DNA of 35,435 nucleotides from Prevotella sp. (GTDB lineage Bacteria; Bacteroidota; Bacteroidia; Bacteroidales; Bacteroidaceae), in contig JAFTFG010000011.1 in NCBI GenBank assembly GCA_017449675.1, positions 1 through 35,435 of the forward strand. Reading direction: 5' to 3'. This document shows positions 12,714 through 34,680 of the stretch, one piece after another. Made by a program: the position numbers and the translations under genes. The notes beneath the pieces were generated by a model. That model worked only from the letters and a program-made list of their open reading frames with translations. It did not search any database and was not told where the DNA came from. Each line of letters begins with the position of its first letter. Within the stretch, counting starts at the first letter, position 1.

Positions 12714-15764
<3,051 letters not shown>

Positions 15765-15781
15765 TTTTCTGTGGGAATAAT

Positions 15782-15812
15782 TTGGTCGTTATACCTTTTC
15801 TTCGTATCTTCG
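15782..15812 (+). promoter_or_regulatory. Bacteroidota-type promoter for the DUF1460 amidase gene
   Basis: TTG at 15782-15784 is followed by exactly 20 bp and then TATCTTCG at 15805-15812, one base from the TAnnTTTG consensus. Transcription would begin near 15818, giving a leader of about 20 nt before the ATG at 15839. This also supports starting the gene at 15839 rather than at an in-frame upstream codon. Confidence 0.7.
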
Positions 15813-15838
15813 CAGTCGATAAGAATAAGTGGAAAGGT

Positions 15839-16699
15839 ATGATAAGAAGAATGATATGTATGTTCATCTGTGGGTTGTTGGCATCCTATGCTCAGGCCCA
15901 GCAGGTGGAATATACCAAGGCCGACAGTGCGTTGGTGGTGAGGCTGTTGAAGGAAGCCAAGACCAAGCGGGGCAAAGAGAACCGGATGATGTATTTCGGT
16001 AAGAAGTTCTTAGGACTGCCTTATGTGGGGCATACCCTGGAGAATGGTGATAAGGAGCACTTGATTGTCAACCTGCATGCGCTCGACTGTACCACCTTCG
16101 TGGAGACTGTACTGGCACTGACGTTATGTGACAAGGACGATACCCGTACGTTCAAGGACTATTGTCGTAACCTCACAAAGATTCGCTATCGTCATGGGAA
16201 GATGACGGACTATACCTCCCGTCTGCATTATTTCACATGGTGGGGAGACGATAATGTCGAGTTGGGACTGGTGAAGGATATCGGTATCATGGATAATCCT
16301 TTCAGGGGTGTGCAGACCGTCCAAATTAACTACATGTCGACACATCCCAACTTGTATAAGCAACTGAGGAACCATCCGGAGTTCGTACCCATCATCAAGG
16401 CGTATGAGGAGGAAATGAATGGTAAGAAATATCCCTATATCCTCAAGAAAGACCTGAACTGGCATCCGTCGACACCGTTGTCGATGGTTCGAAGCGGGGA
16501 TATCGTCGCCATGCTGACTGATAGTGACGGACTAGATACTCGTCATATCGGCATCGCCTTCTGGCAGAACGGGAAACTGCACCTGCTCCATGCCTCCAGC
16601 CTCTATAAGAAGGTGCTGATGAGCAAGGAGACTTTCTATGAGTATGAGGCGAAACAGCCTAAGCATATCGGTATCAGAGTGTGGAGAGTGGTGGAGTGA
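15839..16699 (+). CDS. Secreted DUF1460 family cell-wall amidase
   Basis: Predicted NlpC/P60-fold peptidoglycan amidase of the DUF1460 (PF07313) family. A Bacteroides member is described as cutting the bond between (anhydro)MurNAc and L-Ala, so a role in muropeptide turnover or recycling is likely. The 286-residue protein has a signal peptide, MIRRMICMFICGLLASYAQA, then the mature enzyme. The likely catalytic cysteine is Cys84 in HALDCTTFVE and the likely histidine is His236 in DTRHIGIAFW; the histidine assignment is by position. The start at 15839 lies 27 nt after a good -7 element. The stop overlaps the LicD start (GTGA), so the two are probably translationally coupled. Confidence 0.85.
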   Translation: MIRRMICMFICGLLASYAQAQQVEYTKADSALVVRLLKEAKTKRGKENRMMYFGKKFLGLPYVGHTLENGDKEHLIVNLHALDCTTFVETVLALTLCDKDDTRTFKDYCRNLTKIRYRHGKMTDYTSRLHYFTWWGDDNVELGLVKDIGIMDNPFRGVQTVQINYMSTHPNLYKQLRNHPEFVPIIKAYEEEMNGKKYPYILKKDLNWHPSTPLSMVRSGDIVAMLTDSDGLDTRHIGIAFWQNGKLHLLHASSLYKKVLMSKETFYEYEAKQPKHIGIRVWRVVE

Positions 16700-17478
16700 G
16701 GAAGATTACGGATATACAGGAACTGCGAAGCATCCAGATGGGAATTCTGGATGACGTGCATCGCTTCTGTGAGGAGCAGGGACTGCGCTATTCCCTCAGT
16801 AGCGGTACCCTGATAGGGGCCGTGCGTCATCAGGGCTATATCCCTTGGGACGATGATATTGATATCTATATGCCACGTCAGGACTATGAGCGGTTCCTCA
16901 AGACCTACCATGACCCAGAGGGACACTACAGGGTGTTGGATCCCAAGAAGGAGCCCCACTATTACTATACCTTCGCCAAAGTGGTCGACCAGCGCACAAA
17001 GATGGTGGAAAAGGAGACGGAGGGCTACGAGATAGGGGTGTATATCGACGTTTTCCCTGTGGATTACGTAACGGAAGACCTGCAGGAACGTGCCCGTATT
17101 TTCCAGATGAAGAAACTGCTCTATAAGATTCGTCGTTGTAAGATATCCAATAGTAATCCCTTGCATTCCCGTCTTGCCTATTGGTGCTATCGGAGTCTGC
17201 CTGTTACGGTGGGGATGCTGAACCATTGGATTGAGAGACTGATAGTACGGAAAGAGCCTACCCAGACACTCTGTCACATGACGGAGGCGGGACCATCTAT
17301 CAGAGGCTGTTTCCCTGCCAAGGATATGGAGACGTATACCGAACTACCTTTTGAGGATCGGGTATATAAGGTGATGGCAGGTTATGACGACCATCTGACA
17401 AGGACCTATGGCGACTATATGCAACTGCCGCCTGAAGACCAGCGTACCACGCATCAGTTTGAAGCGTACTGGATTTAA
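16696..17478 (+). CDS. LicD family phosphotransferase
   Basis: LicD proteins transfer a phospho-amino-alcohol such as phosphocholine from a CDP-activated donor to a glycan. The 260 residues show GTLIGAVRHQGYIPWDDDIDIYMP (about 37-60): the GTLLGAVRH box and the acidic metal-binding WDDDID (51-56) define the family. I chose the GTG at 16696, which overlaps the upstream stop as GTGA and gives the typical family beginning (M)RKITDIQELRSIQ; an upstream GTG at 16681 adds only five residues. No membrane span is visible, so it probably acts in the cytoplasm. The gene converges with, and overlaps by 3 bp, an opine-dehydrogenase-like gene, two genes from a LicC-like nucleotidyltransferase. Acceptor and donor are unknown. 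Confidence 0.88.
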   Translation: MRKITDIQELRSIQMGILDDVHRFCEEQGLRYSLSSGTLIGAVRHQGYIPWDDDIDIYMPRQDYERFLKTYHDPEGHYRVLDPKKEPHYYYTFAKVVDQRTKMVEKETEGYEIGVYIDVFPVDYVTEDLQERARIFQMKKLLYKIRRCKISNSNPLHSRLAYWCYRSLPVTVGMLNHWIERLIVRKEPTQTLCHMTEAGPSIRGCFPAKDMETYTELPFEDRVYKVMAGYDDHLTRTYGDYMQLPPEDQRTTHQFEAYWI

Positions 17479-17495
17479 TTATTAATAGTTAACAT
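17475..17495. repeat. Heptamer repeats across two convergent stop codons
   Basis: Units ttaatta (17475-17481), ttaatag (17482-17488) and ttaacat (17489-17495) are contiguous. The first contains both stop codons: TAA of licD (17476-17478) and TAA of the minus-strand dehydrogenase (17477-17475). The repeat supplies the last codons (LTINN) of the dehydrogenase. No terminator hairpin is visible between these convergent genes. Confidence 0.7.
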
Positions 17496-18518
17496 GGTTT
17501 TGCCCCATTCATATACCTTATTAATATGAGGGCAGTCGATGTGATGCTCGTGCATCAGCCGGTGGATGATGGCAAGACCATAAGGGAAGTCTTCCGTGAA
17601 ATAACGGCTCTGGAAATCAGGGATGAAAGCGTTACCGACAGCCTTCATAGGGGAGGGAATCTCCTTGAAGGCTTCAATACTATGAAGTTTGTGGGTCAGA
17701 GAGGCAGCGTCCGTACTCTCATAATAATCCAGGATAGAGGGAATAGCACCAGGGGTGACAGGGAGGACAGCCAATAGGCGGAAGAACTCCTCATCCATAT
17801 CAATCAACAGTTGGGAGGCCTCATCCGTCCAGTCGTAATAGAACATGCTCCGAATGGGGTAGGTAACACCTTCATGCCAGTCGTTCCACATACTATAGAG
17901 CCGTGAGGTATGCAACAGAGGATTACTGTTTGTCAGACTGACCTCGTAGTGGCTGCCTAACAGTCGGACCGGGGTATTCAGTATCTCCCCAATCTCCTTG
18001 GCCAGTCGCTCTCCACTCTTCTCTCCTCTTTCCACTGCCATACTGAGTGAGGGCTTATAGCCCAACAGGTGGGCGGAGTGGCCGTAATCCTCCAGACGGG
18101 CAATAAACGGGACTCGCTGAAATCCGAAAAGAGGGGTCGATACAGGTAGTATCTGTAGTGCCTCGAAGAAGAATCCTGTACTGCTGACGACACTGCCTAC
18201 TGCTGTTTGTGGGCGTAGGAAGGGACGGATGGCGTGTAGGGTATCGGCAATACCATAACCGGGAAGACAGAGCAGGACGATGTCTGCCTGCGGGATGACC
18301 TCCTCCGGACGGTTGGAGATACGGGAGAGATGACCGATGAAAGAACTGCCATCGGGGGTATGGATGGTGATATTGTCGCTCCATTGCTCCGGATGACGTG
18401 TGAATAACTGTACGTTATAGCCGCGATGAGCAGCAAAGGCTGCTATCACATGTCCCAGGTTACCGCCTCCGCAAATAACTATTTGCTTTTGGATTTTGGC
18501 TTTCGACTTGTCCTCCAT
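17475..18518 (-). CDS. NAD/NADP octopine-nopaline dehydrogenase family protein
   Basis: Predicted NAD(P)-dependent oxidoreductase resembling opine dehydrogenases, which reductively join an amino acid to a keto acid. The 347 residues open with a Rossmann motif CGGGNLGHV (about 16-24), followed by LFTRHPEQW and DIVLLCLPGYG. The C-terminal half is all-helical and contains GSHYEVSLTNSNPLLHTSRLY, the conserved His-Asn region of the opine dehydrogenase C-terminal domain. The gene starts 13 nt after the fusion gene ends on the minus strand, so it belongs to the metG-fusion operon. The substrate cannot be read from the sequence; the context suggests processing of a small amino compound used with the neighbouring transferases. 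Confidence 0.8.
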   Translation of the reverse strand: MEDKSKAKIQKQIVICGGGNLGHVIAAFAAHRGYNVQLFTRHPEQWSDNITIHTPDGSSFIGHLSRISNRPEEVIPQADIVLLCLPGYGIADTLHAIRPFLRPQTAVGSVVSSTGFFFEALQILPVSTPLFGFQRVPFIARLEDYGHSAHLLGYKPSLSMAVERGEKSGERLAKEIGEILNTPVRLLGSHYEVSLTNSNPLLHTSRLYSMWNDWHEGVTYPIRSMFYYDWTDEASQLLIDMDEEFFRLLAVLPVTPGAIPSILDYYESTDAASLTHKLHSIEAFKEIPSPMKAVGNAFIPDFQSRYFTEDFPYGLAIIHRLMHEHHIDCPHINKVYEWGKTMLTINN

Positions 18519-18523
18519 ATCCT

Positions 18524-18551
18524 CTAAAGGGCTAACTGCTAAAGGCTAATA
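18524..18551. repeat. Heptamer repeats across the stop codon of the fusion gene
   Basis: On the plus strand the units are ctaaagg, gctaact, gctaaag and gctaata (18524-18551). They cover the last codons and TAG stop (18534-18532) of the nucleotidyltransferase-aminotransferase gene and part of the 13-nt gap to the next gene. The gctaaxx units resemble the gccaaxx units at 14882 and 20118. Confidence 0.7.
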
Positions 18552-20364
18552 ACGCCTCTGCCAGTCTGGTATTGTCTTCATGGTTACGTACGGCGATGCG
18601 CATATATTGACGCTGTGGGTCGAGACCGGGTTTCCCGCTACAGTCACGGGTCAGGATATTATGCTGCTTGAGCATCCTGATCACGATCTCACTGGCCTTG
18701 AAGGGAGGCAGTACCTCACAGAGGAAATAGTTGGCCTCGGTAGGCATCACTCTCAGGAAAGGTATCGTACGCAACTGTTGCTCGAAACTGTCACGTTCGG
18801 CGATGAACTTAGCACAAGCACGCTGGTAGTCTTTCTCATGTTTGTTGTATATCTGCATGAAGAACTCTGCAAATGAGTTGAGGTTCCAGATAGACACTTC
18901 CCGTTTGGCACGGGCTATCAGGGTAGTATCGGCAGAGGCCATGATACCCAGACGGAGCCCCGGGACACCATAACTCTTCGAGATACTCTTCATCACCGCC
19001 ATGTGTGGATAGGCGGTAAGTATCTCGTCACTGAGCAGTGAGTTGGTGGCATAGTCATGACTGAAATCGACGAAGGATTCGTCAACCACAAGACGAAAAC
19101 CTTTCTCTTCTGCCCATGCTGCCAGGCGTAGCACATCATCCTTAGGAATGAAATTGCCAGAGGGATTGTCGGGATTGATCAGCATCAGTTGACTGATATC
19201 CTTATCGGCAAAGAATGCCATCAAGTCGTCGGCGGTATAGCGATAATCTTCGTTTTGCGGAACAAAGGTCACCTGATGCTCTTTATCGTAGCGGTTAGGA
19301 TATTCCTCGAAAGTGGGGCGGACGAAGCCGACTTTCCCCTGTGAGTCCTCCATTAAGATCTTGATGAGTTCTGCAGCACCATTGCCTGGGACGATATAGG
19401 GTTCGCTCACGCCGAAGCATTTGCTGGCGATGAGGGTATTCACCTTCATACCGGAGGGGTATTCCGTCAATAGCGTGTCGAAATTAGCCCTTAACTCGTC
19501 TTTGAGACGGCTGGAGGGGAAGTAGGGATTGACGAGATAGCAGAAATCAAGCATCTGGGGAAAACGCCAGAAGCCGCCATAGCGTCCGTAGTATTTACGG
19601 ATGACATCTTTCTCATCGGCAAAGAGGGCCTCTGCGATGTCCAGGTCTTGTTTGTCGTCAATCTCATACCATTTCTCATCTCCGATGGGGAGTGCTTTCA
19701 ACTCATGCTCATTCAACAGGGAGATGATGCGCAGCACGTTCTCGTAGTATTCGTTCAGTCCTACGGCCTTCGTATAGGCATCGAGGAAAGGCACGTATTT
19801 CTCTTGGAGGAACATGCGACTGAACTTATAGATGTTCACCGTTTTATAATAGGTGTCGACATCGTTGTAGTTAAAGGCGTTCTTCGAAATGAAATTAACG
19901 ATATTATGGTCTTCGTCGATCTGTACCATCGTACCGTCCATCCAGGTCTCGTATTTGGCTACCAATGCCAGATTGGGTTGTGGATTCTCTAGAATCATCG
20001 GGATGAGACGGTCGCTGAAGATGAGGTCGCTCTCCAACAGGATGGTGTCGTCTTTTTGTAACTCGTCTTTTACGATAGAGAGCGAGTAGATATTGTTGGT
20101 CTTGTCGTAGATGGGGTTCTCGGCATATTGCAGTTGGCAATTGGCTGTTAGCATTTTGCCATATTGCGCCTCAATATATTCGCGCAACTCTTGTCCCTTA
20201 TAGCCGACTACGATGATGACACGTTGGAGCGAGAGTTTCGACAACTGGTCTAACAGACGGTCTATCAGTCGCACACCATTCACGGGGACCATGCATTTCG
20301 TCTGGTCCTTCGTCAGTTCTCCGAGTCTGCGACCCATACCGGCCGCCAAGATAATTGCCTGCAT
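18532..20364 (-). CDS. Bifunctional LicC-like nucleotidyltransferase / PLP aminotransferase
   Basis: A 610-residue fusion. Residues 1 to about 245 are a sugar-phosphate or choline-phosphate type nucleotidyltransferase: ILAAGMGRRL (5-14), LTKDQTKCMVPVNG (17-30), KTNNIYSL (88-95) and ESDLIF (111-116). Residues about 275-610 are a class I/II PLP aminotransferase similar to HisC/CobD: NPDNPSGN (398-405), DES (428-430), and the PLP lysine most likely Lys463 in SISKSYGVPGLRLG. The NIYSL signature is typical of LicC-like CTP transferases. Such fusions are known in activation of aminoethylphosphonate and related compounds, so one protein may make an amino-phosphate by transamination or decarboxylation and then activate it with CTP. 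The start overlaps the metG stop (TAATG). A heptamer run encodes residues about 66-82. Confidence 0.87.
   Translation of the reverse strand: MQAIILAAGMGRRLGELTKDQTKCMVPVNGVRLIDRLLDQLSKLSLQRVIIVVGYKGQELREYIEAQYGKMLTANCQLQYAENPIYDKTNNIYSLSIVKDELQKDDTILLESDLIFSDRLIPMILENPQPNLALVAKYETWMDGTMVQIDEDHNIVNFISKNAFNYNDVDTYYKTVNIYKFSRMFLQEKYVPFLDAYTKAVGLNEYYENVLRIISLLNEHELKALPIGDEKWYEIDDKQDLDIAEALFADEKDVIRKYYGRYGGFWRFPQMLDFCYLVNPYFPSSRLKDELRANFDTLLTEYPSGMKVNTLIASKCFGVSEPYIVPGNGAAELIKILMEDSQGKVGFVRPTFEEYPNRYDKEHQVTFVPQNEDYRYTADDLMAFFADKDISQLMLINPDNPSGNFIPKDDVLRLAAWAEEKGFRLVVDESFVDFSHDYATNSLLSDEILTAYPHMAVMKSISKSYGVPGLRLGIMASADTTLIARAKREVSIWNLNSFAEFFMQIYNKHEKDYQRACAKFIAERDSFEQQLRTIPFLRVMPTEANYFLCEVLPPFKASEIVIRMLKQHNILTRDCSGKPGLDPQRQYMRIAVRNHEDNTRLAEALLAFSS
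20118..20167 (-). repeat. In-frame heptamer repeat run inside the nucleotidyltransferase domain
   Basis: Reading the minus strand, the units are GCAATAT, one extra base, then GCAAAAT, GCTAACA, GCCAATT, GCCAACT, GCAATAT, GCCGAGA. They encode GKMLTANCQLQYAE (about residues 69-82), between the conserved GYKGQELREY and ENPIYDKTNNIYSL blocks. The core gccaatt/gccaata is shared with the run at 14882. Confidence 0.75.
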
Positions 20365-22430
20365 TATCCTACCTGACTACCGGGTTTCACATCTTTCGTG
20401 GTGGTTACCACGCTGAGGCTCTCGTCAAAGTCGACGGCAGAGAGGATCATACCCTGACTCTCAATGCCCATCATCTGGCGGGGAGCGAAGTTGGCGACGA
20501 AGAGGATGCGTTTGCCGACAAGGACACTGGGGTCTTCATAGAAGGCGGCGATACCACTGAGGATAGTACGGTCGGTATCAGTACCGTCGTCAATGGTGAA
20601 CTGTAAGAGTTTCTTCGACTTTTTCACCTTCTCGCAGGCTTTAATCAGACCGACACGGATATCGAGTTTCTCGAAGTCCTCAAAACTGACGGTATCTTTG
20701 ACAGGGGCAGCCTGATAAGAGGCAGCCTCGTTTGCCTTCTTTGTTGCCTCTAACTTGTCGAGTTGTTTCTGAATTACCTCGTCCTCAATCTTTTCGAAGA
20801 GCAGACTGGGCTCACCCATCTGATGACCAGCCTTCAACAGGTTGGTACTGCCTAACTGTTCCCACTCAAAACTCTCAAGGTTCAACATCTCACGCAGTTT
20901 TTGACTGGAGAAGGGGAGGAATGGCTCAAAGGCAATGGCCAGGTTAGCCGTTAGTTGCAGACAGATATTCAGGATGGTCTCACAACGCTTTGGATCGGTC
21001 TTCCAGACCTTCCAAGGCTCGCACTCGGTGATGTATCGGTTACCGATACGGGCCAGATTCATCGCCTCAAACTGGGCATCACGGAACTTAAACTGGTCGA
21101 GCAGGGCCTCGACCTTCTGCTTCACGTCTTTGAACTCCTCCAGAGCCTGTTTGTCGACATCTTGCAAGTCACCGCAGGCAGGGACGATACCGTTCCAGTA
21201 TTTCTTGGTCAACTGGAGGGCGCGGTTGACGAAGTTACCATAGACAGCCACCAGTTCGTTGTTATTACGGTCTTGGAAGTCCTTCCAAGTGAAGTTGTTG
21301 TCTTTTGTCTCAGGGGCATTGGCTGTCAGCACATAGCGCAGCACATCCTGTTTACCGGGCATGTCCACCAGATATTCGTGCAACCATACCGCCCAGTTGC
21401 GGGAGGTGGAGATTTTATCGTTCTCCAAGTTCAGGAACTCATTGGCAGGTACATTGTCTGGCAGGATATACTTACCGTGTGCCTTCATCATCACAGGGAA
21501 GATGATACAGTGGAACACGATATTGTCCTTTCCGATGAAATGCACCAGACGGGTGTCCTCGTCCTGCCACCACTTCTGCCAAGAACCCCACTTCTCGGGT
21601 TCACGGTCACAGAGTTCTTTAGTGTTGCTGACATAACCGATAGGTGCATCAAACCATACGTACAATACCTTGCCGTCGGCTCCCTCCACAGGAACGGGGA
21701 TTCCCCAGTCCAGATCACGGGTCATGGCACGGGGCTGCAAGTCCATGTCCAACCATGACTTACACTGCCCATAGACGTTTGGACGCCATTCTTTGTGGTC
21801 CTCCAGAATCCATTGCTTCAACCAGTCCTGATACTCGTTCAGGGGCAGGTACCAGTTCTTGGTCTTTTTCAGTACAGGAGTAGAGCCACTGATGGTCGAC
21901 TTGGGGTTGATGAGTTCCGTAGGACTCAGGTCACGTCCGCATTTCTCACACTGGTCACCATAGGCACCCTCGTTATGGCAATGGGGACATTCTCCCGTCA
22001 CATAGCGGTCGGCGAGGAACTGCTTCGCCTCCTCATCGTAGAGTTGCTCCGTAGTTTCCTCTACCAGTTTCTCCTCGTCGTAGAGTTTACGGAACCACTC
22101 TGCGGCAAACTGGTGGTGTGTCGCACTGGTCGTGCGACTATAGATGTCAAACGAGATACCGAACTCCTTGAACGAGTCCTTGATCATCTTATGATAGCGG
22201 TCTACCACATCCTGTGGGGTGATTCCCTCTTTACGGGCACGGACGGTAATGGGTACACCATGCTCATCGCTACCGCCAATAAACAGTACCTCTTCTTTCT
22301 TCAGTCTCAGATAACGTACATAGATGTCGGCTGGTACATACACACCAGCCAAGTGACCGATATGCACACCGCCATTAGCATAGGGCAGTGCGGATGTCAC
22401 GGTCGTTCGCTTAAACTTCTTTTCAGCCAT
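20364..22430 (-). CDS. metG: Methionyl-tRNA synthetase with C-terminal tRNA-binding domain
   Basis: Charges tRNA-Met with methionine. The 688 residues fit the long form. HIGH is at residues 23-26, the zinc knuckle is CPHC...CEKC (Cys148, 151, 161, 164), and the KMSKS equivalent is KISTS (339-343) before RNWAVW. Residues about 585-688 form the EMAP II/Trbp111 tRNA-binding domain, opening [17 protein letters not shown]. It is transcribed divergently from a BASS transporter gene, from a promoter within a 15-bp inverted repeat at 22459-22499. Its TAA overlaps the next ATG by one base (TAATG), which couples it to the nucleotidyltransferase-aminotransferase gene, an unusual partner for a tRNA synthetase. 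Confidence 0.98.
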
Positions 22431-30344: not shown

Positions 30345-30387
30345 AAACGAAGAAACTCCATCTCAATCGGGATGGAGTTTCTCGTTT
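30345..30387. terminator. Terminator between convergent amylase and pectinase genes
   Basis: AGAAACTCCATC (30351-30362) pairs with GATGGAGTTTCT (30371-30382) around an 8-nt loop, extended by AAACG/CGTTT with one bulged A. It could act in both directions. Its right arm ends at the stop codon of the minus-strand pectinase gene (30388-30386). Confidence 0.85.
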
Positions 30388-32491
30388 AATAGGCGACGAC
30401 CTTCCACAGGTCACGGATGCGAGCCTCGGGGTCCCAGCGGTCTCCGAAGGTCCATCGTGCAGTGACCGTATGGTATTCAGGTTTTCCTGGTGCCTTTTGC
30501 AGGTTATCCCTCAGCCAGCCGCTGTCACCTCCGTCTCGCCAACAGGCCCAGTAGTATGTGCGTTTCCCCCAAGGACAGGGATCGAGCACCTTGTCGGTAT
30601 AAGCATAGTGGATATCCTCGTCCAGGATGTTGGAGGATAACTGGCAGTGAACCAGATAGAACTGCGAGTCGTGATGGTAACGTCCCAGTGTCGTGGGACT
30701 CTTCGCATCAAACTGGGAGTCGACAATCACCAGTTTTTTGTCCGGGTCTCCTCGTCCGTCATGCCAGATGATGGCATGACCGTCTCCTTCGAAGCGGCAG
30801 CGGGTGGCATAGCACCAGCCGCGAGGACAGAGGAAGTCTACTCCTGAGCACCGTACGAAGAGGTCGGCATGGTAGTACATACCATTACCTTCTGGTGCCC
30901 AGAGTGATAAGGCATCATTACCATCGGAACAGACATTGCTATTGATAATAATGGTACGTGTAGCACGTCCATAGACGGCAAACTGGTGGGAGGTCGTTTT
31001 CTCTACCGTTGTCCCGTAGTTGTTATAGATGGTCAGACCGCTGATCAGGCAGTCGTCGGCTCCTTCCAATAGTTCTACAACACCGTGCTTGACGGGTTGT
31101 CCTTGGTAGGTCGTCACACGGGGCTTACTGCTCAGTTCCGCCCATTGGATGATAGTACTATCACGCTGTTCACCTACTAATACGATATTCGGACGGTCGA
31201 TGATGACCTTCTGGTCATAGATTCCTTTCTTGATCAGGATCTTATAAGGCTGGGCAGGTTGTGCGGGAGCCTTCTCGATGGCAGCCTGAATACTTTGTCC
31301 CGCTTCGACGATAGCATCGAAGTCAGAGAGATGGATGGCGGGACGGGCATACATATCATAGGTGCCGTTCTCGTTCATTCCCTTTGTCGTCAGACTGATC
31401 GTGACTTTATGTTGAGGATCATACTTGTCTGCCCATGCTTCATAGCGTGGGTATAGGTCGGCGATGCGGTCGACATACCAGCCATAGCCGTTGCGACGCT
31501 CATGACCGATCTGTTCTATCCGTCGACGGGGAATCCCGTCACGGTCGCAGACAAACGGTTCGGCGTGTTTCAGGTCATAGTAGCGGGCCCATAAGGGCTT
31601 CCGGGCAGTGGCATCCTCCACCAATACACGGTCGTGGTTGGGACTGCGCCAGTCTCCTCGAAACTCTTGTCTTACCCCTGTCAGTTTATGGTTGTCCAAC
31701 CAACGCATGGCTGCATGGACGGCTTTCTTGACACGCTCGTCAGGGTTGGGCAGTGTCATCAGCAGACGTACGATGGCTCCGCTCTCTGTCGAACAGTAGG
31801 AGGGTAACTCGAAGGCACGGGCGGGAGCCGGGAGATAGGTCTCACGGTCGTGTTGCTGGCACCATACTGTCAGTTCTCCGTCAGTCACTATCTGTGTTTT
31901 CAGGATACACTCCACCCCTTTCTCCAAGGCTTGGTGCATGCGTTTCTTCATGTTCTTGTCGGCAACATCCTGATAGGGAGTCTTGTCGTCGGCCATGTCA
32001 CGCAGTACTTCCAGTGTCCTGATCATGGCATCATCATTATAAGTGATGTGTATCTGATAGCCTTTGGGGTCGGGCCAGAACTGGGGCCATCCGCCATTGT
32101 CGTATTGTCCGCTGAGCAGGTATTCGGCTCCCCGCAGGACGGCATCACGGTATTTGGCATCTTTCGTTGCCTGGTAGAGGCGGGCCAGGTATGCCATCTG
32201 CATCGTGGTGGCTCCATTGTCGGTGGTGGAGTCGTCCCGTCGTTGTTGGTCCTTCAGAACTTTCTCTCTTTCCTGGTCGTTAAGCGGACGTGCCATATTG
32301 ATATTCTTAGGCCATCCTCCTGTTACTCGCTGGTACAGCAGAACCTGTTCACCGATACGGCGGGCTTCATCGGTTTTGAAGAACGCTGGGTGTGTCTCCC
32401 TCAGTCCTCTTTCCCGCTCTTTGAGTTGTGCGGATGTTGTTGTGCATACTGTCAATAACAGTAATGCCCACAAAATAGATTTCGTTTTCAT
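30386..32491 (-). CDS. PL10 pectate lyase - CE8 pectin methylesterase fusion
   Basis: Exported two-enzyme pectin-degrading protein, 701 residues, with a signal peptide (about 1-21, ending TSAQ). Residues about 30-355 are a family 10 polysaccharide lyase: VTGGWPKNI (56-64), DNGATTMQMAYLARLY (91-106), NGGWPQFWP (132-140) and the CQQHD...AFELPS region (211-231). Residues about 385-700 are a CE8 pectinesterase beta-helix with Asp526 (GNDAL), Asp552 (GVDF) and Arg604 (LGR) in the catalytic positions. Most CE8 enzymes have Gln before the first Asp; here it is Asn525. The enzyme would demethylate and then cleave pectin. It starts 15 nt after a glycosyltransferase gene and shares no visible promoter of its own. 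Confidence 0.88.
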   Translation of the reverse strand: MKTKSILWALLLLTVCTTTSAQLKERERGLRETHPAFFKTDEARRIGEQVLLYQRVTGGWPKNINMARPLNDQEREKVLKDQQRRDDSTTDNGATTMQMAYLARLYQATKDAKYRDAVLRGAEYLLSGQYDNGGWPQFWPDPKGYQIHITYNDDAMIRTLEVLRDMADDKTPYQDVADKNMKKRMHQALEKGVECILKTQIVTDGELTVWCQQHDRETYLPAPARAFELPSYCSTESGAIVRLLMTLPNPDERVKKAVHAAMRWLDNHKLTGVRQEFRGDWRSPNHDRVLVEDATARKPLWARYYDLKHAEPFVCDRDGIPRRRIEQIGHERRNGYGWYVDRIADLYPRYEAWADKYDPQHKVTISLTTKGMNENGTYDMYARPAIHLSDFDAIVEAGQSIQAAIEKAPAQPAQPYKILIKKGIYDQKVIIDRPNIVLVGEQRDSTIIQWAELSSKPRVTTYQGQPVKHGVVELLEGADDCLISGLTIYNNYGTTVEKTTSHQFAVYGRATRTIIINSNVCSDGNDALSLWAPEGNGMYYHADLFVRCSGVDFLCPRGWCYATRCRFEGDGHAIIWHDGRGDPDKKLVIVDSQFDAKSPTTLGRYHHDSQFYLVHCQLSSNILDEDIHYAYTDKVLDPCPWGKRTYYWACWRDGGDSGWLRDNLQKAPGKPEYHTVTARWTFGDRWDPEARIRDLWKVVAY

Positions 32492-32506: not shown

Positions 32507-33265
32507 TTATTTGATGAATGCTCTGATGACAAACCAGCCGTGCATGACACAGGTGGTGAGGAGCCCGTAGTGATGTCGCATCACACGGAAGCGCTCTTTC
32601 AAAGAGTCGCGGTGATTCTGGGTGGAGTCTCCTCCTTCCAGGAAGTCCGCCAGTATCTCGTTGGTGTTCACAAGTGGCAACTGTTGCTGTTCCGCCCGTT
32701 TCATGACTCGTATGCACCAGTCGACATCGGCGGAATGGCGATACTGTAAGTCATATTCCTCTTGTCGGGCGATATCTGTACGGACATAAAAGGCCTGATG
32801 GCAGACGAGCATGCCTTGTCGGAATGATTTCCAGGTGAGATGACGGGGAGGACGCAGCCGACGCAGATGGAGGAAGGTGCCTTCATTGTCGACGATGGCG
32901 GTATCACCGTAGATGACGGCGGGGGATGGAGATGTAAGATGTGAGAGGTGAGAGGTGAGAGTGGATAACGTATCCGCTGCATGAAGGGTGTCTCCTGCAT
33001 TGAGGAAGACCAGATAGTCGCCCGTTGCCTTACGCAGTCCTTTGTTCATCGCATCATAGAGTCCTTTGTCCGGCTCTGACAGGATGGTGACCTCGTAGGG
33101 ACATTCCTTCCGATAGGTCTCAGCGATAGCCACTGTCTCGTCTTTCGAGGCTCCGTCAATAATCAGGTGCTCTATCTGCTGATAGGTCTGATGCCGAATA
33201 CTGTCAAGTGTCCTTGGCAGTACGCTGGCAGCGTTATAGGTGACGGTAATAAGGGTAATCTTCAT
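32507..33265 (-). CDS. Family 2 glycosyltransferase (WcaE-like)
   Basis: Inverting GT-A glycosyltransferase, probably for a surface polysaccharide. The 252 residues show the GT2 start ITLITVTYNAASVLPRTLDSI (3-23), LIIDGASKDET (34-44), the metal-binding region LNAGDTLHAADT (88-99, standing in place of DxD) and a C-terminal RHSADVDWCIR acceptor-side motif. It begins 6 nt after the GT4 gene ends, so these two are cotranscribed. A heptamer repeat run (32924-32965) encodes STLTSHLSHLTSPSP (about 101-115) in the loop before VIYGDTAIV. Sugar donor and acceptor are unknown. Confidence 0.88.
   Translation of the reverse strand: MKITLITVTYNAASVLPRTLDSIRHQTYQQIEHLIIDGASKDETVAIAETYRKECPYEVTILSEPDKGLYDAMNKGLRKATGDYLVFLNAGDTLHAADTLSTLTSHLSHLTSPSPAVIYGDTAIVDNEGTFLHLRRLRPPRHLTWKSFRQGMLVCHQAFYVRTDIARQEEYDLQYRHSADVDWCIRVMKRAEQQQLPLVNTNEILADFLEGGDSTQNHRDSLKERFRVMRHHYGLLTTCVMHGWFVIRAFIK
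32924..32965 (-). repeat. In-frame heptamer repeat run inside the GT2 gene
   Basis: Plus-strand units are ggatgga, gatgtaa, gatgtga, gaggtga, gaggtga, gagtgga, all contiguous. On the coding strand they give a Ser/Thr/His/Leu-rich loop (about residues 101-115) that is not part of the conserved GT2 core. This is the third protein gene in the window with such a run, using a different sequence family from the gccaaxx runs. Confidence 0.8.
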
Positions 33266-33271
33266 GTGATC

Positions 33272-34549
33272 CTAATTCTTTTTCATCTCTTTCGGGCGCA
33301 AGGCAGCCTCATATACCTCTATGTAATGCATGGCGACACTTTGTTGGGAATAGTGCCGGGCTACTTTCTTCAGACAGGCTTTCCTGACAGCCTCCGTGTC
33401 GGCCTCGTCAAGGGCCCATCGGATACCTTTCGCCAGATCAACGGCATCACGGTAGTCTGCCACATAACCGTTCTCCAGATGGTCAATCTCCTCAGGAATA
33501 CCTCCTATGCGGAAACCGATAGAGGGAATACCGCAGGCCATCGCCTCCATGATGGTATTGGGGAGGTTCTCAGAGAGAGAGGGGAGTACAAAGACATCTG
33601 CTGCATTATAGACTTTGACAATCTGCTGCTCATTGTTCACATAGCCTAGGGGATGACTCTCGAAGGGCAACTGACTGGTGACCTCCTCGGCATGACCGCC
33701 CAGGATGGCGATATGGGTGTTCTTGATCATGTCTGGATATTGCCGCACCAGCCATTGACAGGCTTCTTCCAGATACTGCATTCCCTTATAGGGGTTGGTG
33801 GCTCGCTGCGATACAAAGAGGATCAGTCTGCCGTCAGTGGGTAGTCCCAGTTCCTCTCGTGCTTTCTGCTTGCCGAGTGGATGGTACAGACGGGTGTCGA
33901 TAGGGTTGGGGACACTGGTGATCGTCTGTCCTTTGAGTAAGGCACTCTTCCGGGCCTCTTCTGACAACCATCGGCTACAGGCGACGAAGGTGATGCGCTG
34001 CCCTTCCAGCATCTGTTGTTTCCTATGCCATACCTTGGTCGACAGGTCGTTGGCTGACCCGCCTCCGGGAAGTAGTCGGCATTGCTGACAGGTGGTCTCA
34101 AAGCGGCGACAGTCCAGTGTGAGGTGACAGATGGCTGTAGCCGGCCAGATGTCATGCATCGTCCATACGACATGCTTACCGCTATCCAGTATCTTACGGA
34201 TATTCCTCAGCGAGAGCATGCCTTGGTTGACCCAGTGCAGGTGTATCACGTCAGCCTCTTGGAACTCCCGCAACTTGGTGATGTCCGTTCCAGTATTGGC
34301 GATATCTATATCAAATAGATGGGGACGGCGCAGGTGCAGGTGTAGCCAGACACAAAAGCGCTCCCATAGAAAATTCCAGTGCAACCGCCAACTCTTGGGG
34401 AGTGCCACGACGGAGAGATGGTTGGTCTCCTTGTCGCGCACCAGCATCTTCACCTTGACTCCGTTGTTGTTCAGAGCCTCCATCAGACGGTGGGCTGCCA
34501 CAGCGGCTCCACCGGTTCGTTCACTTGTGTTGATGATCAATACTCGCAT
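33272..34549 (-). CDS. Family 4 glycosyltransferase
   Basis: Retaining GT-B glycosyltransferase, likely for a cell-surface glycan. With the ATG at 34549 the protein is 425 residues: MRVLIINTSERTGGAAVAAHRL, then the donor-site pattern SLSENLPNTIMEAMACGIPSI, which has the usual Glu-x7-Glu. In between are HWVNQG and WTMHDIWPATAICH, typical of mannosyl/glucosyl-type GT4 proteins. A longer reading frame from 34624 is rejected because it crosses a perfect -7 element. Its mRNA would have nearly no leader. It is followed 6 nt later by the GT2 gene. Confidence 0.88.
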   Translation of the reverse strand: MRVLIINTSERTGGAAVAAHRLMEALNNNGVKVKMLVRDKETNHLSVVALPKSWRLHWNFLWERFCVWLHLHLRRPHLFDIDIANTGTDITKLREFQEADVIHLHWVNQGMLSLRNIRKILDSGKHVVWTMHDIWPATAICHLTLDCRRFETTCQQCRLLPGGGSANDLSTKVWHRKQQMLEGQRITFVACSRWLSEEARKSALLKGQTITSVPNPIDTRLYHPLGKQKAREELGLPTDGRLILFVSQRATNPYKGMQYLEEACQWLVRQYPDMIKNTHIAILGGHAEEVTSQLPFESHPLGYVNNEQQIVKVYNAADVFVLPSLSENLPNTIMEAMACGIPSIGFRIGGIPEEIDHLENGYVADYRDAVDLAKGIRWALDEADTEAVRKACLKKVARHYSQQSVAMHYIEVYEAALRPKEMKKN

Positions 34550-34557
34550 AGTCCTTC

Positions 34558-34565
34558 CAAAGGTA
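34558..34565 (-). promoter_or_regulatory. -7 element for the GT4-GT2-pectinase operon
   Basis: TACCTTTG on the minus strand (34565-34558) is an exact consensus match. The GT4 ATG is at 34549, so the transcript would start within a few bases of it. No matching TTG at about -33 is visible. Confidence 0.65.
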
Positions 34566-34680
34566 CGAAGAAATATGTAAAAACGTATCATTTTACACGA
34601 TATTTTCATTGTTTGCGCACACAAACCATTGATTTAGGTCAAGAATAGGGCATTTTTATGCAGGAAAACCTCAAAAAATG

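Follow-up and report, generated by a model that had tools for sequence, protein, structure and literature searches.

What does an opine dehydrogenase do beside enzymes that activate and transfer a phospho-amino compound? The question is raised by a 35,435-base stretch of Prevotella sp. DNA (the window, which is the whole of contig C22; the source assembly is 54% complete). A reading made from the sequence alone had placed three unusual open reading frames (ORFs) here, i.e. a LicC-like nucleotidyltransferase fused to a pyridoxal-phosphate (PLP) enzyme, an opine-dehydrogenase-like protein (ODH) 13 nt downstream, and a convergent LicD transferase; Pfam profiles confirmed all three at the positions claimed. 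The activation and transfer of a phospho-amino compound, which it had proposed for them, is supported. The cassette probably makes and transfers an opine-type phosphoethanolamine; we infer the reactions, the keto acid and the acceptor from sequence. The genes and domains concerned are as follows.

16681..17478, plus strand: LicD-family phosphotransferase (PF04991, 154 bits)
17475..18518, minus strand: ODH, octopine/opine-dehydrogenase-like (PF02317, 103 bits)
18532..20364, minus strand: fusion of nucleotidyltransferase and PLP domain, 610 aa (NTP_transf_3, 47 bits; Aminotran_1_2, 92 bits)
19660..20364, minus strand: LicC-like nucleotidyltransferase domain, fusion residues 1-235 (matches to 1jyk and 6pd1)
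18532..19614, minus strand: CobD-like class I/II PLP domain, fusion residues 251-610 (CobD profile; matches to 6oux and 1lc5)

The three genes had been read as one pathway, and their neighborhood proved to be conserved in relatives. Two overlapping samples were used, and their counts are not additive. For the contig set, genome contigs were scanned with 16 ODH query sequences; 458 of 482 pattern matches were confirmed, and the best 80 were kept (L086-L165). The titles of these records named Prevotella, Hoylesella, Xylanibacter, uncultured Prevotellaceae, Bacteroidaceae and Bacteroidales, and one uncultured bacterium. The family set comprised 301 genomes of the family, with 50 ODH matches besides that of the window. 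In 78 of the 80 contig loci, no more than 600 bp separated ODH from an ORF with both fusion domains. The two genes were on the same strand in 76 of these 78 (opposite in L089 and L091), and they overlapped by 4 nt in 41 of the 76. An intact fusion near ODH was missing from L087, where it is split into two frames, and from L112, where none was seen. ODH and LicD formed a single ORF in 14/80 contig loci, and a separate LicD gene was positioned within 2.1 kb of ODH in 53/80. In the family set, the fetched stretch contained the fusion in 45 of the 50 ODH loci, and ODH was fused to LicD in five. The fusion was missing from the other five: L067, L069, L077, which lies at a contig end, L078, whose ODH is divergent, and L040, whose genome has the fusion at another place. 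The association of the fusion, ODH and LicD is far beyond chance.

Beyond the family, the fusion was detected in 13 of 374 genomes of the order, including that of the window. Eleven of the other loci were fetched (the weak G740 was omitted): ODH adjoined the fusion in three and a protein of the mu-crystallin/tauropine-dehydrogenase family (PF02423; hereafter OCD) in two, three had only LicD, and three had other contexts. In L218, the fusion was present as two ORFs with ODH adjoining. A phylum-wide sample of 395 genomes yielded ODH at an expectation value (E) of 1e-15 in the window's own genome only, and a search of IMG/VR for close relatives only found none.

Some further features of these loci were recorded. 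A partial second copy of the fusion and ODH was located downstream of the complete copy at L165:8690-10431. The fusion at L087:4902-6836 and an aminoethylphosphonate (AEP) transaminase at L069:7452-8541 were each split over two frames, as a result of an assembly error or as pseudogenes. At L056:9587-11827, a second nucleotidyltransferase and an amino-acid permease (66 bits against the ethanolamine permease model, cut-off 382) separated ODH from the fusion.

The fusion is judged, with considerable confidence, to be a phosphoserine decarboxylase joined to a CTP:phosphoethanolamine cytidylyltransferase, i.e. a putative CDP-ethanolamine synthase. Against NCBIfam, its PLP domain scored 183 bits with CobD and 133 bits with HisC. 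Because 183 bits is below the cut-off of the CobD equivalog TIGR01140 (290.55 bits), the domain is named CobD-like and not CobD. The nearest solved structures were 6oux (E 9.5e-42; threonine phosphate decarboxylase-like), which we take to be a phosphoserine decarboxylase, and CobD itself, 1lc5 (E 1.2e-29). An alignment of 124 fusion sequences was made from two overlapping sets that were pooled with the window included. In all 124, PLP-domain residues K463, N400, D428, R471, R589 and R593 were invariant. The nucleotidyltransferase domain matched LicC (1jyk, E 1.3e-11, residues 2-108) and 6pd1 (E 5.8e-8, residues 2-183); R13, K23, D113 and D236 were invariant in 124/124, with the LicC alignment being partial (residues 2-108). 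The sequence-only reading had left the PLP domain a choice between transamination and decarboxylation. Decarboxylation of phosphoserine (or phosphothreonine) stands as most likely for this CobD-like class I/II domain, and transamination does not.

Two other roles for the PLP domain were rejected. That of an AEP transaminase was excluded by fold class (Aminotran_1_2, class I/II and not class V) and by profile; 6pd1, which carries a class V aminotransferase, aligned solely with the nucleotidyltransferase part of the window's fusion. That of a cobamide CobD was set aside because of a higher-scoring CobD in the same genome (contig C23, 266.7 bits, also below 290.55), located beside an ABC-transporter ATPase. 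Because this separate, better CobD is present, the fusion is regarded as a CobD paralogue that probably has another job. Service of the whole fusion in cobamide (norcobamide) side-chain synthesis is accordingly very improbable: the domain is CobD-like and 6oux is presumably a norcobamide enzyme, but the second CobD is the better candidate, and a LicD partner and a fused nucleotidyltransferase do not fit such a role.

The PLP domains of the fusions (L032-L165 and the window) fell into two subtypes of 69 and 55 sequences. Between subtypes, identity was ca. 60% in pairs with ca. 80% identical nucleotidyltransferase domains (e.g. L093 and L086), a pattern that suggests domain exchange inside the fusion. 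A substrate switch between the subtypes was considered and dropped; at positions aligned with the catalytic residues of CobD, only Arg/Lys at 573 differed.

The window's ODH scored above the Octopine_DH profile cut-off (PF02317; 103 bits, cut-off 30), and its closest solved structure was octopine dehydrogenase, 3c7a (E 8.4e-28; 6e-45 using a profile). H203, R305 and D310 aligned with H212, R324 and D329 of 3c7a and did not vary in either of two alignments (16 and 33 sequences). The numbering of Asp329 in octopine dehydrogenase is presumed here; the position does align. A His-Asp proton relay and an Arg324 sensor are described for that enzyme in part of PMC2924402. The window's ODH is predicted to N-carboxyalkylate the nitrogen of ethanolamine (or AEP). 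The dehydrogenase had been said to have no place in known phosphocholine or AEP routes, such that a new substituent was possible. A role for it in a new substituent is supported, and the missing place would be filled by opine chemistry, which gives ODH a candidate role in N-alkylation. That the amine receives opine-type tailoring from the dehydrogenase is considered rather likely on the sequence evidence.

Proteobacterial plasmids also encode ODH relatives (47 records; 25-31% identity among the 20 matches listed). They were rejected as members of the same system: in four records, neither LicD nor LicC was annotated, and tyrosinase/oxidase or siderophore genes were nearby. Because of those surroundings, they look like other opine enzymes. 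Paired ODH paralogues were present near tyrosinase and oxidase genes on plasmids of Burkholderia, Paraburkholderia and Mesorhizobium (L082, L083, L084).

The predicted function of LicD is transfer of the (N-carboxyalkyl)ethanolamine phosphate from a CDP donor onto a glycan. It matched PF04991 over the complete profile (positions 1-227 of 227; 154 bits, cut-off 22.6) and was the sole LicD match in the 54%-complete genome. The LicD and ODH genes are convergent with a 4-nt overlap, and the candidate starts of LicD are GTG 16681, GTG 16696 and ATG 16738. An AmiA-like protein (PF07313, window 15686-16699) ends 19 nt within the longest LicD frame; the same kind of gene is the LicD neighbor in eight close relatives (L086, L088-L092, L094, L149). 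Two classes of LicD were distinguished among L086-L165. One class, mostly convergent, was 65-88% identical to the window's LicD, and the downstream or ODH-fused class was ca. 30-35% identical; the two may serve different acceptors.

Exchange of the dehydrogenase was examined in the family genomes, using E cut-offs of 1e-15 for ODH, 1e-60 for the fusion, 1e-20 for OCD, and below 1e-45 for phosphoenolpyruvate (PEP) mutase. The OCD query was a PF02423 protein located immediately downstream of a fusion, at the usual ODH position. ODH was detected in 51 of the 301 genomes, the fusion in 72, OCD in 21, and a PEP mutase match in 49. The fusion was present as two ORFs in G554 and G635, and only in part in G603 and G646. 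The 72 fusion genomes comprised 47 with ODH, 17 with OCD, eight with neither and none with both. In 12 of these 17 OCD genomes, the gene was positioned directly downstream of the fusion (in G646, after the PLP half); in the other five, the two were on separate contigs. PF02423 is described as the tauropine dehydrogenase family in parts of PMC3840593 and PMC4113996. Both dehydrogenase families include enzymes that condense an amine reductively with a keto acid, and LicD usually completes the set. The simplest reaction that the two families could share is N-carboxyalkylation of the amine.

These counts also bear on a plainer account, in which the fusion makes CDP-ethanolamine, LicD transfers unmodified phosphoethanolamine, and ODH or OCD has a separate task (amino acid synthesis, cofactor recycling). 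It is favored by the eight fusion genomes without either dehydrogenase and by loci in which LicD directly follows the fusion: L193, from one of those eight, and L208 and L209, from other families. Such loci imply that an untailored donor is probably used in some species. However, the 14 ODH-LicD fusions among the 80 contig loci and the mutual exclusion of ODH and OCD tie the dehydrogenase to the donor, and the account is judged unlikely for the cassette.

The supply of amine is apparently exchanged as well. Eight family genomes contained ODH or OCD without the fusion. Three were set aside: G417 and G679, in which the gene lies against the end of its contig, and G465, in which the match (28% identity) is probably another ODH. 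The PEP mutase gene (pepM) was present in all five of the rest (G469, G501, G565, G601, G633) versus 32 of 224 other fusionless genomes (Fisher P 9e-5, calculated without regard to shared ancestry; pepM is in 5/8 if no genome is set aside). Phosphonopyruvate decarboxylase (Ppd) and AEP transaminase (AEPT) were likewise found in all five. In G633 and G565 (L067 and L069), the genes stand in a row on one strand: nucleotidyltransferase, PepM, Ppd, AEPT, ODH, a PF04464 phosphotransferase and a flippase. The family searches for this row were run on G633 (PepM 419 bits, cut-off 320; Ppd 513, cut-off 312.5; AEPT 469, cut-off 361); the G565 row, whose AEPT is split, was assigned by similarity. In G501, OCD begins 33 nt after pepM; in both G501 and G469, the other nucleotidyltransferase, Ppd, AEPT and LicD genes are on different contigs. 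In G607, the fusion, ODH and one pepM stand together. G601 was observed to have a PepM-Ppd-nucleotidyltransferase-AEPT-LicD row without a dehydrogenase (L206:7895-13153) and, ca. 200 kb away, an OCD-LicD pair beside metG (L196).

A phosphonate route, for which the sequence-only reading had found no pepM or ppd in the window, does occur, yet it accompanies ODH in two fusionless relatives (L067 and L069) and not in the window's locus. The window's genome gave no PF13714 match at E 0.001 in the search for pepM, an absence that carries little weight in a 54%-complete assembly.

Replacement of the fusion by the AEP route in five genomes indicates a two-carbon amine. Phosphoethanolamine and AEP, which differ by one oxygen, are the predicted products of the two exchangeable supply modules. 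With two interchangeable amine sources and two interchangeable opine-type enzymes, the expected product is therefore an N-(1-carboxyalkyl)-phosphoethanolamine or its phosphonate twin. The same replacement argues against another ODH-tailored amino phosphate, whether serinol phosphate from dihydroxyacetone phosphate or aminopropanol phosphate from phosphothreonine. CobD itself (1lc5, by its name) acts on phosphothreonine, and related PLP enzymes are used in Campylobacter for serinol phosphate. Those points speak for such a substrate; the closest solved structures, the CobD-like 6oux and CobD 1lc5, are counted against it together with the two-carbon replacement, and we consider it about as unlikely as transfer of plain phosphoethanolamine.

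The opine-type phosphoethanolamine would be assembled in four steps. First, the PLP domain would decarboxylate L-serine O-phosphate (possibly L-threonine O-phosphate), yielding phosphoethanolamine. Second, the nucleotidyltransferase domain would activate this compound with CTP to give CDP-ethanolamine. Third, ODH would join an alpha-keto acid (probably pyruvate) to the amino group, and reduction of the imine with NAD(P)H would yield N-(1-carboxyalkyl)ethanolamine phosphate. This step might precede activation, use the CDP donor as its substrate, or follow transfer; action at the donor or transfer stage is favored because ODH-LicD fusions exist. Fourth, LicD would attach the product to a glycan; the general protein O-glycan of Bacteroidota, at its outer chain, is the most probable acceptor. 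Relatives would exchange the amine supply for AEP and the opine enzyme for one of the mu-crystallin type, with the logic kept. In the AEP loci, the same product would result from an alternative order, in which phosphonoacetaldehyde is joined to an amino acid.

The choice of acceptor depends on the surroundings of the cassette, which include three more genes of the window.

20364..22430, minus strand: metG, next upstream of the fusion (methionine--tRNA ligase, 866 bits, cut-off 587)
32507..33265, minus strand: family 2 glycosyltransferase, GT2 (PF00535), 54% identical to the last glycosyltransferase of L055 (L055:13559-14338)
33272..34624, minus strand: family 4 glycosyltransferase, GT4 (PF00534), 54% identical to the penultimate glycosyltransferase of L055 (L055:12331-13599)

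According to part of PMC12871550, a review, the general O-glycosylation locus (LFG) runs from metG, its starting anchor, through a wzx flippase and a variable middle part to two conserved glycosyltransferases; the same source counts phosphate and amino groups among the rare decorations. The metG anchor adjoins the cassette in the window, where the first base of the fusion gene coincides with the last of metG. The order in L055 is metG (876 bits), flippase (834 bits, above the O-glycosylation cut-off of 720), two ORFs, fusion-ODH-LicD, two genes, GT4 and GT2. Gene neighbors were counted in the 80 contig loci, in 48 countable family loci, and in 47 loci with the fusion or OCD. In the contig loci, a flippase of the superfamily was within 9 kb in 54/80 and metG within 3.5 kb in 41/80; in 22/79, metG was followed directly by the fusion in the same orientation. 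In the fusion/OCD loci, flippase and metG were each near in two. A GT4-GT2 pair resembling that of the window was present in 0/80, 1/48 and 2/47 loci, respectively. The window's own pair (32507-34624) is 12 kb from the cassette; its GT2 is a possible builder of the acceptor. The flippase homologue of the window's genome is on contig C30, in a block of the same gene kinds as the cassette-side block of P. ruminicola KHT3 (L145), with the order of two genes swapped; the two flippases are 62% identical. A phosphate-linked side group of a different kind, HexNAc-HPO3-C6H12O5, is reported for a P. intermedia O-glycan in part of PMC10897501.

On this evidence, the protein O-glycan is the likely acceptor, with confidence only a little better than even. 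Another glycan or a (glyco)lipid is the lesser possibility and concerns the acceptor alone, being compatible with the donor proposed above. It draws on a match of the window's LicD to a diacylglycerol cholinephosphotransferase model (87 bits, cut-off 225) and on the distribution of flippases: none is adjacent in the window, and none is within 9 kb in 26/80 contig and 37/48 family loci, some of which are short stretches. The layout of L055 and the 54 contig loci with a flippase count against it.

Two tandem paralogous proteins (the one tested is DUF6080) were located by the O-glycosylation flippase block in both the window's genome (L226:11850-14628) and P. ruminicola (L145:13267-16033); they are possible O-glycosylation factors. 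A single protein with a pectate-lyase domain and a pectinesterase-like domain (30 bits, cut-off 27) is encoded at window 30386-32491.

Several observations weigh against the proposed pathway. With regard to the enzymes, the PLP domain falls short of the CobD cut-off (183 vs. 290.55 bits), and the LicC match spans just 107 residues. Octopine dehydrogenase is reported to be inactive on agmatine, an amine without an alpha-carboxylate (part of PMC2924402); an opine enzyme that uses a simple phospho-amine would therefore differ from this relative. PF02423 includes reductases that form no opine, and pyrroline-carboxylate reductase and alanine dehydrogenase were among the matches of the OCD profile, so OCD alone is no proof of opine formation. 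With regard to gene content, eight of the 72 fusion genomes are without ODH and OCD (G451, G511, G525, G554, G603, G635, G639, G680), OCD in G469 and G601 adjoins no AEP gene, and the probability given for the pepM enrichment ignores shared ancestry. The fused ODH-LicD locus L112 has no adjoining fusion, and no LicD was found within 2.1 kb in 13/80 contig loci, several of which are short contigs. With regard to the acceptor, a flippase was near in just 11/48 countable family loci and metG in 8/48; in the window, no flippase is beside the cassette, and the one homologue, on contig C30, scored 588 bits (cut-off 720).

There is about an even chance that opine-type head groups, N-(1-carboxyalkyl)-phosphoethanolamine and its phosphonate twin, are assembled combinatorially in Bacteroidales, from either of two amine sources and by either of two opine-forming enzymes of unrelated families, and are delivered by LicD to the general protein O-glycan or to another, related glycan of the surface. 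The proposal gives a job to a dehydrogenase formerly without a place in LicC/LicD routes and would bring opine chemistry into the tailoring of surface glycans. If correct, it would define a previously unrecognized class of zwitterionic or acidic surface decoration. Within the limited literature searched, it would also be the first assigned biosynthetic route to a group of the carboxyethyl-ethanolamine-phosphate type, and it would explain the synthesis of a substituent known chemically from enterobacterial glycans. The predicted groups would alter surface charge and antigenicity. In gut and rumen Prevotella, the calculated additions to the mass of the O-glycans would be 123.009 Da for phosphoethanolamine, 195.030 for its N-carboxyethyl form, 107.014 for AEP and 179.035 for N-carboxyethyl-AEP. 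The swap of phosphate for phosphonate supply would be a case of glycan decoration evolving through module replacement.

N-[(R)-1-Carboxyethyl]ethanolamine phosphate is a Proteus O-antigen group. It is the kind of substituent predicted here, and PMC9630907 names it in the legend to a figure that shows P. mirabilis O-polysaccharides and Klebsiella capsules. No biosynthetic genes for it were found in the parts of PMC9630907 and PMC5560731 covered. In the main text of the latter, a paper on Proteus O-antigen gene clusters, the terms ethanolamine, opine, licD and nucleotidyltransferase are absent, which is neutral. Among the titles and opening lines of abstracts listed from Creative Commons-licensed literature, none concerned this pathway.

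Comparison with known systems places each part of the proposal. L055 shares metG, the wzx flippase, the variable middle and the two glycosyltransferases with the Bacteroides LFG (part of PMC12871550) and has the cassette inside; the window's genome differs in that its flippase block is on a separate contig. Octopine dehydrogenase (3c7a) and CENDH (1bg6) share PF02317 and the His/Asp/Arg positions with the window's ODH. Their substrate is an amino acid, whereas the window's enzyme is predicted to act on phosphoethanolamine or AEP and is adjacent to LicD or, in some relatives, fused to it. Sponge tauropine dehydrogenase is an opine-forming member of the family that takes the place of ODH here, although it belongs to animal opine metabolism and involves no glycan; its substrate, taurine, is the sulfonate analogue of AEP. 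In 6pd1, which we take to be PntC, a phosphonate cytidylyltransferase is joined to an AEP transaminase. It thus shares with the window's fusion a nucleotidyltransferase linked to a substrate-supplying PLP enzyme, but its aminotransferase is of class V, and the window's PLP domain is class I/II and CobD-like. LicC and LicD decorate surfaces with phosphocholine in Haemophilus and pneumococcus. CTP activation of an amino-alcohol phosphate by a LicC-like enzyme, followed by LicD transfer, is common to that system and the present one; here, however, a PLP decarboxylase fused to the nucleotidyltransferase is predicted to produce the amine phosphate de novo, and an opine-type dehydrogenase to modify its nitrogen afterwards.

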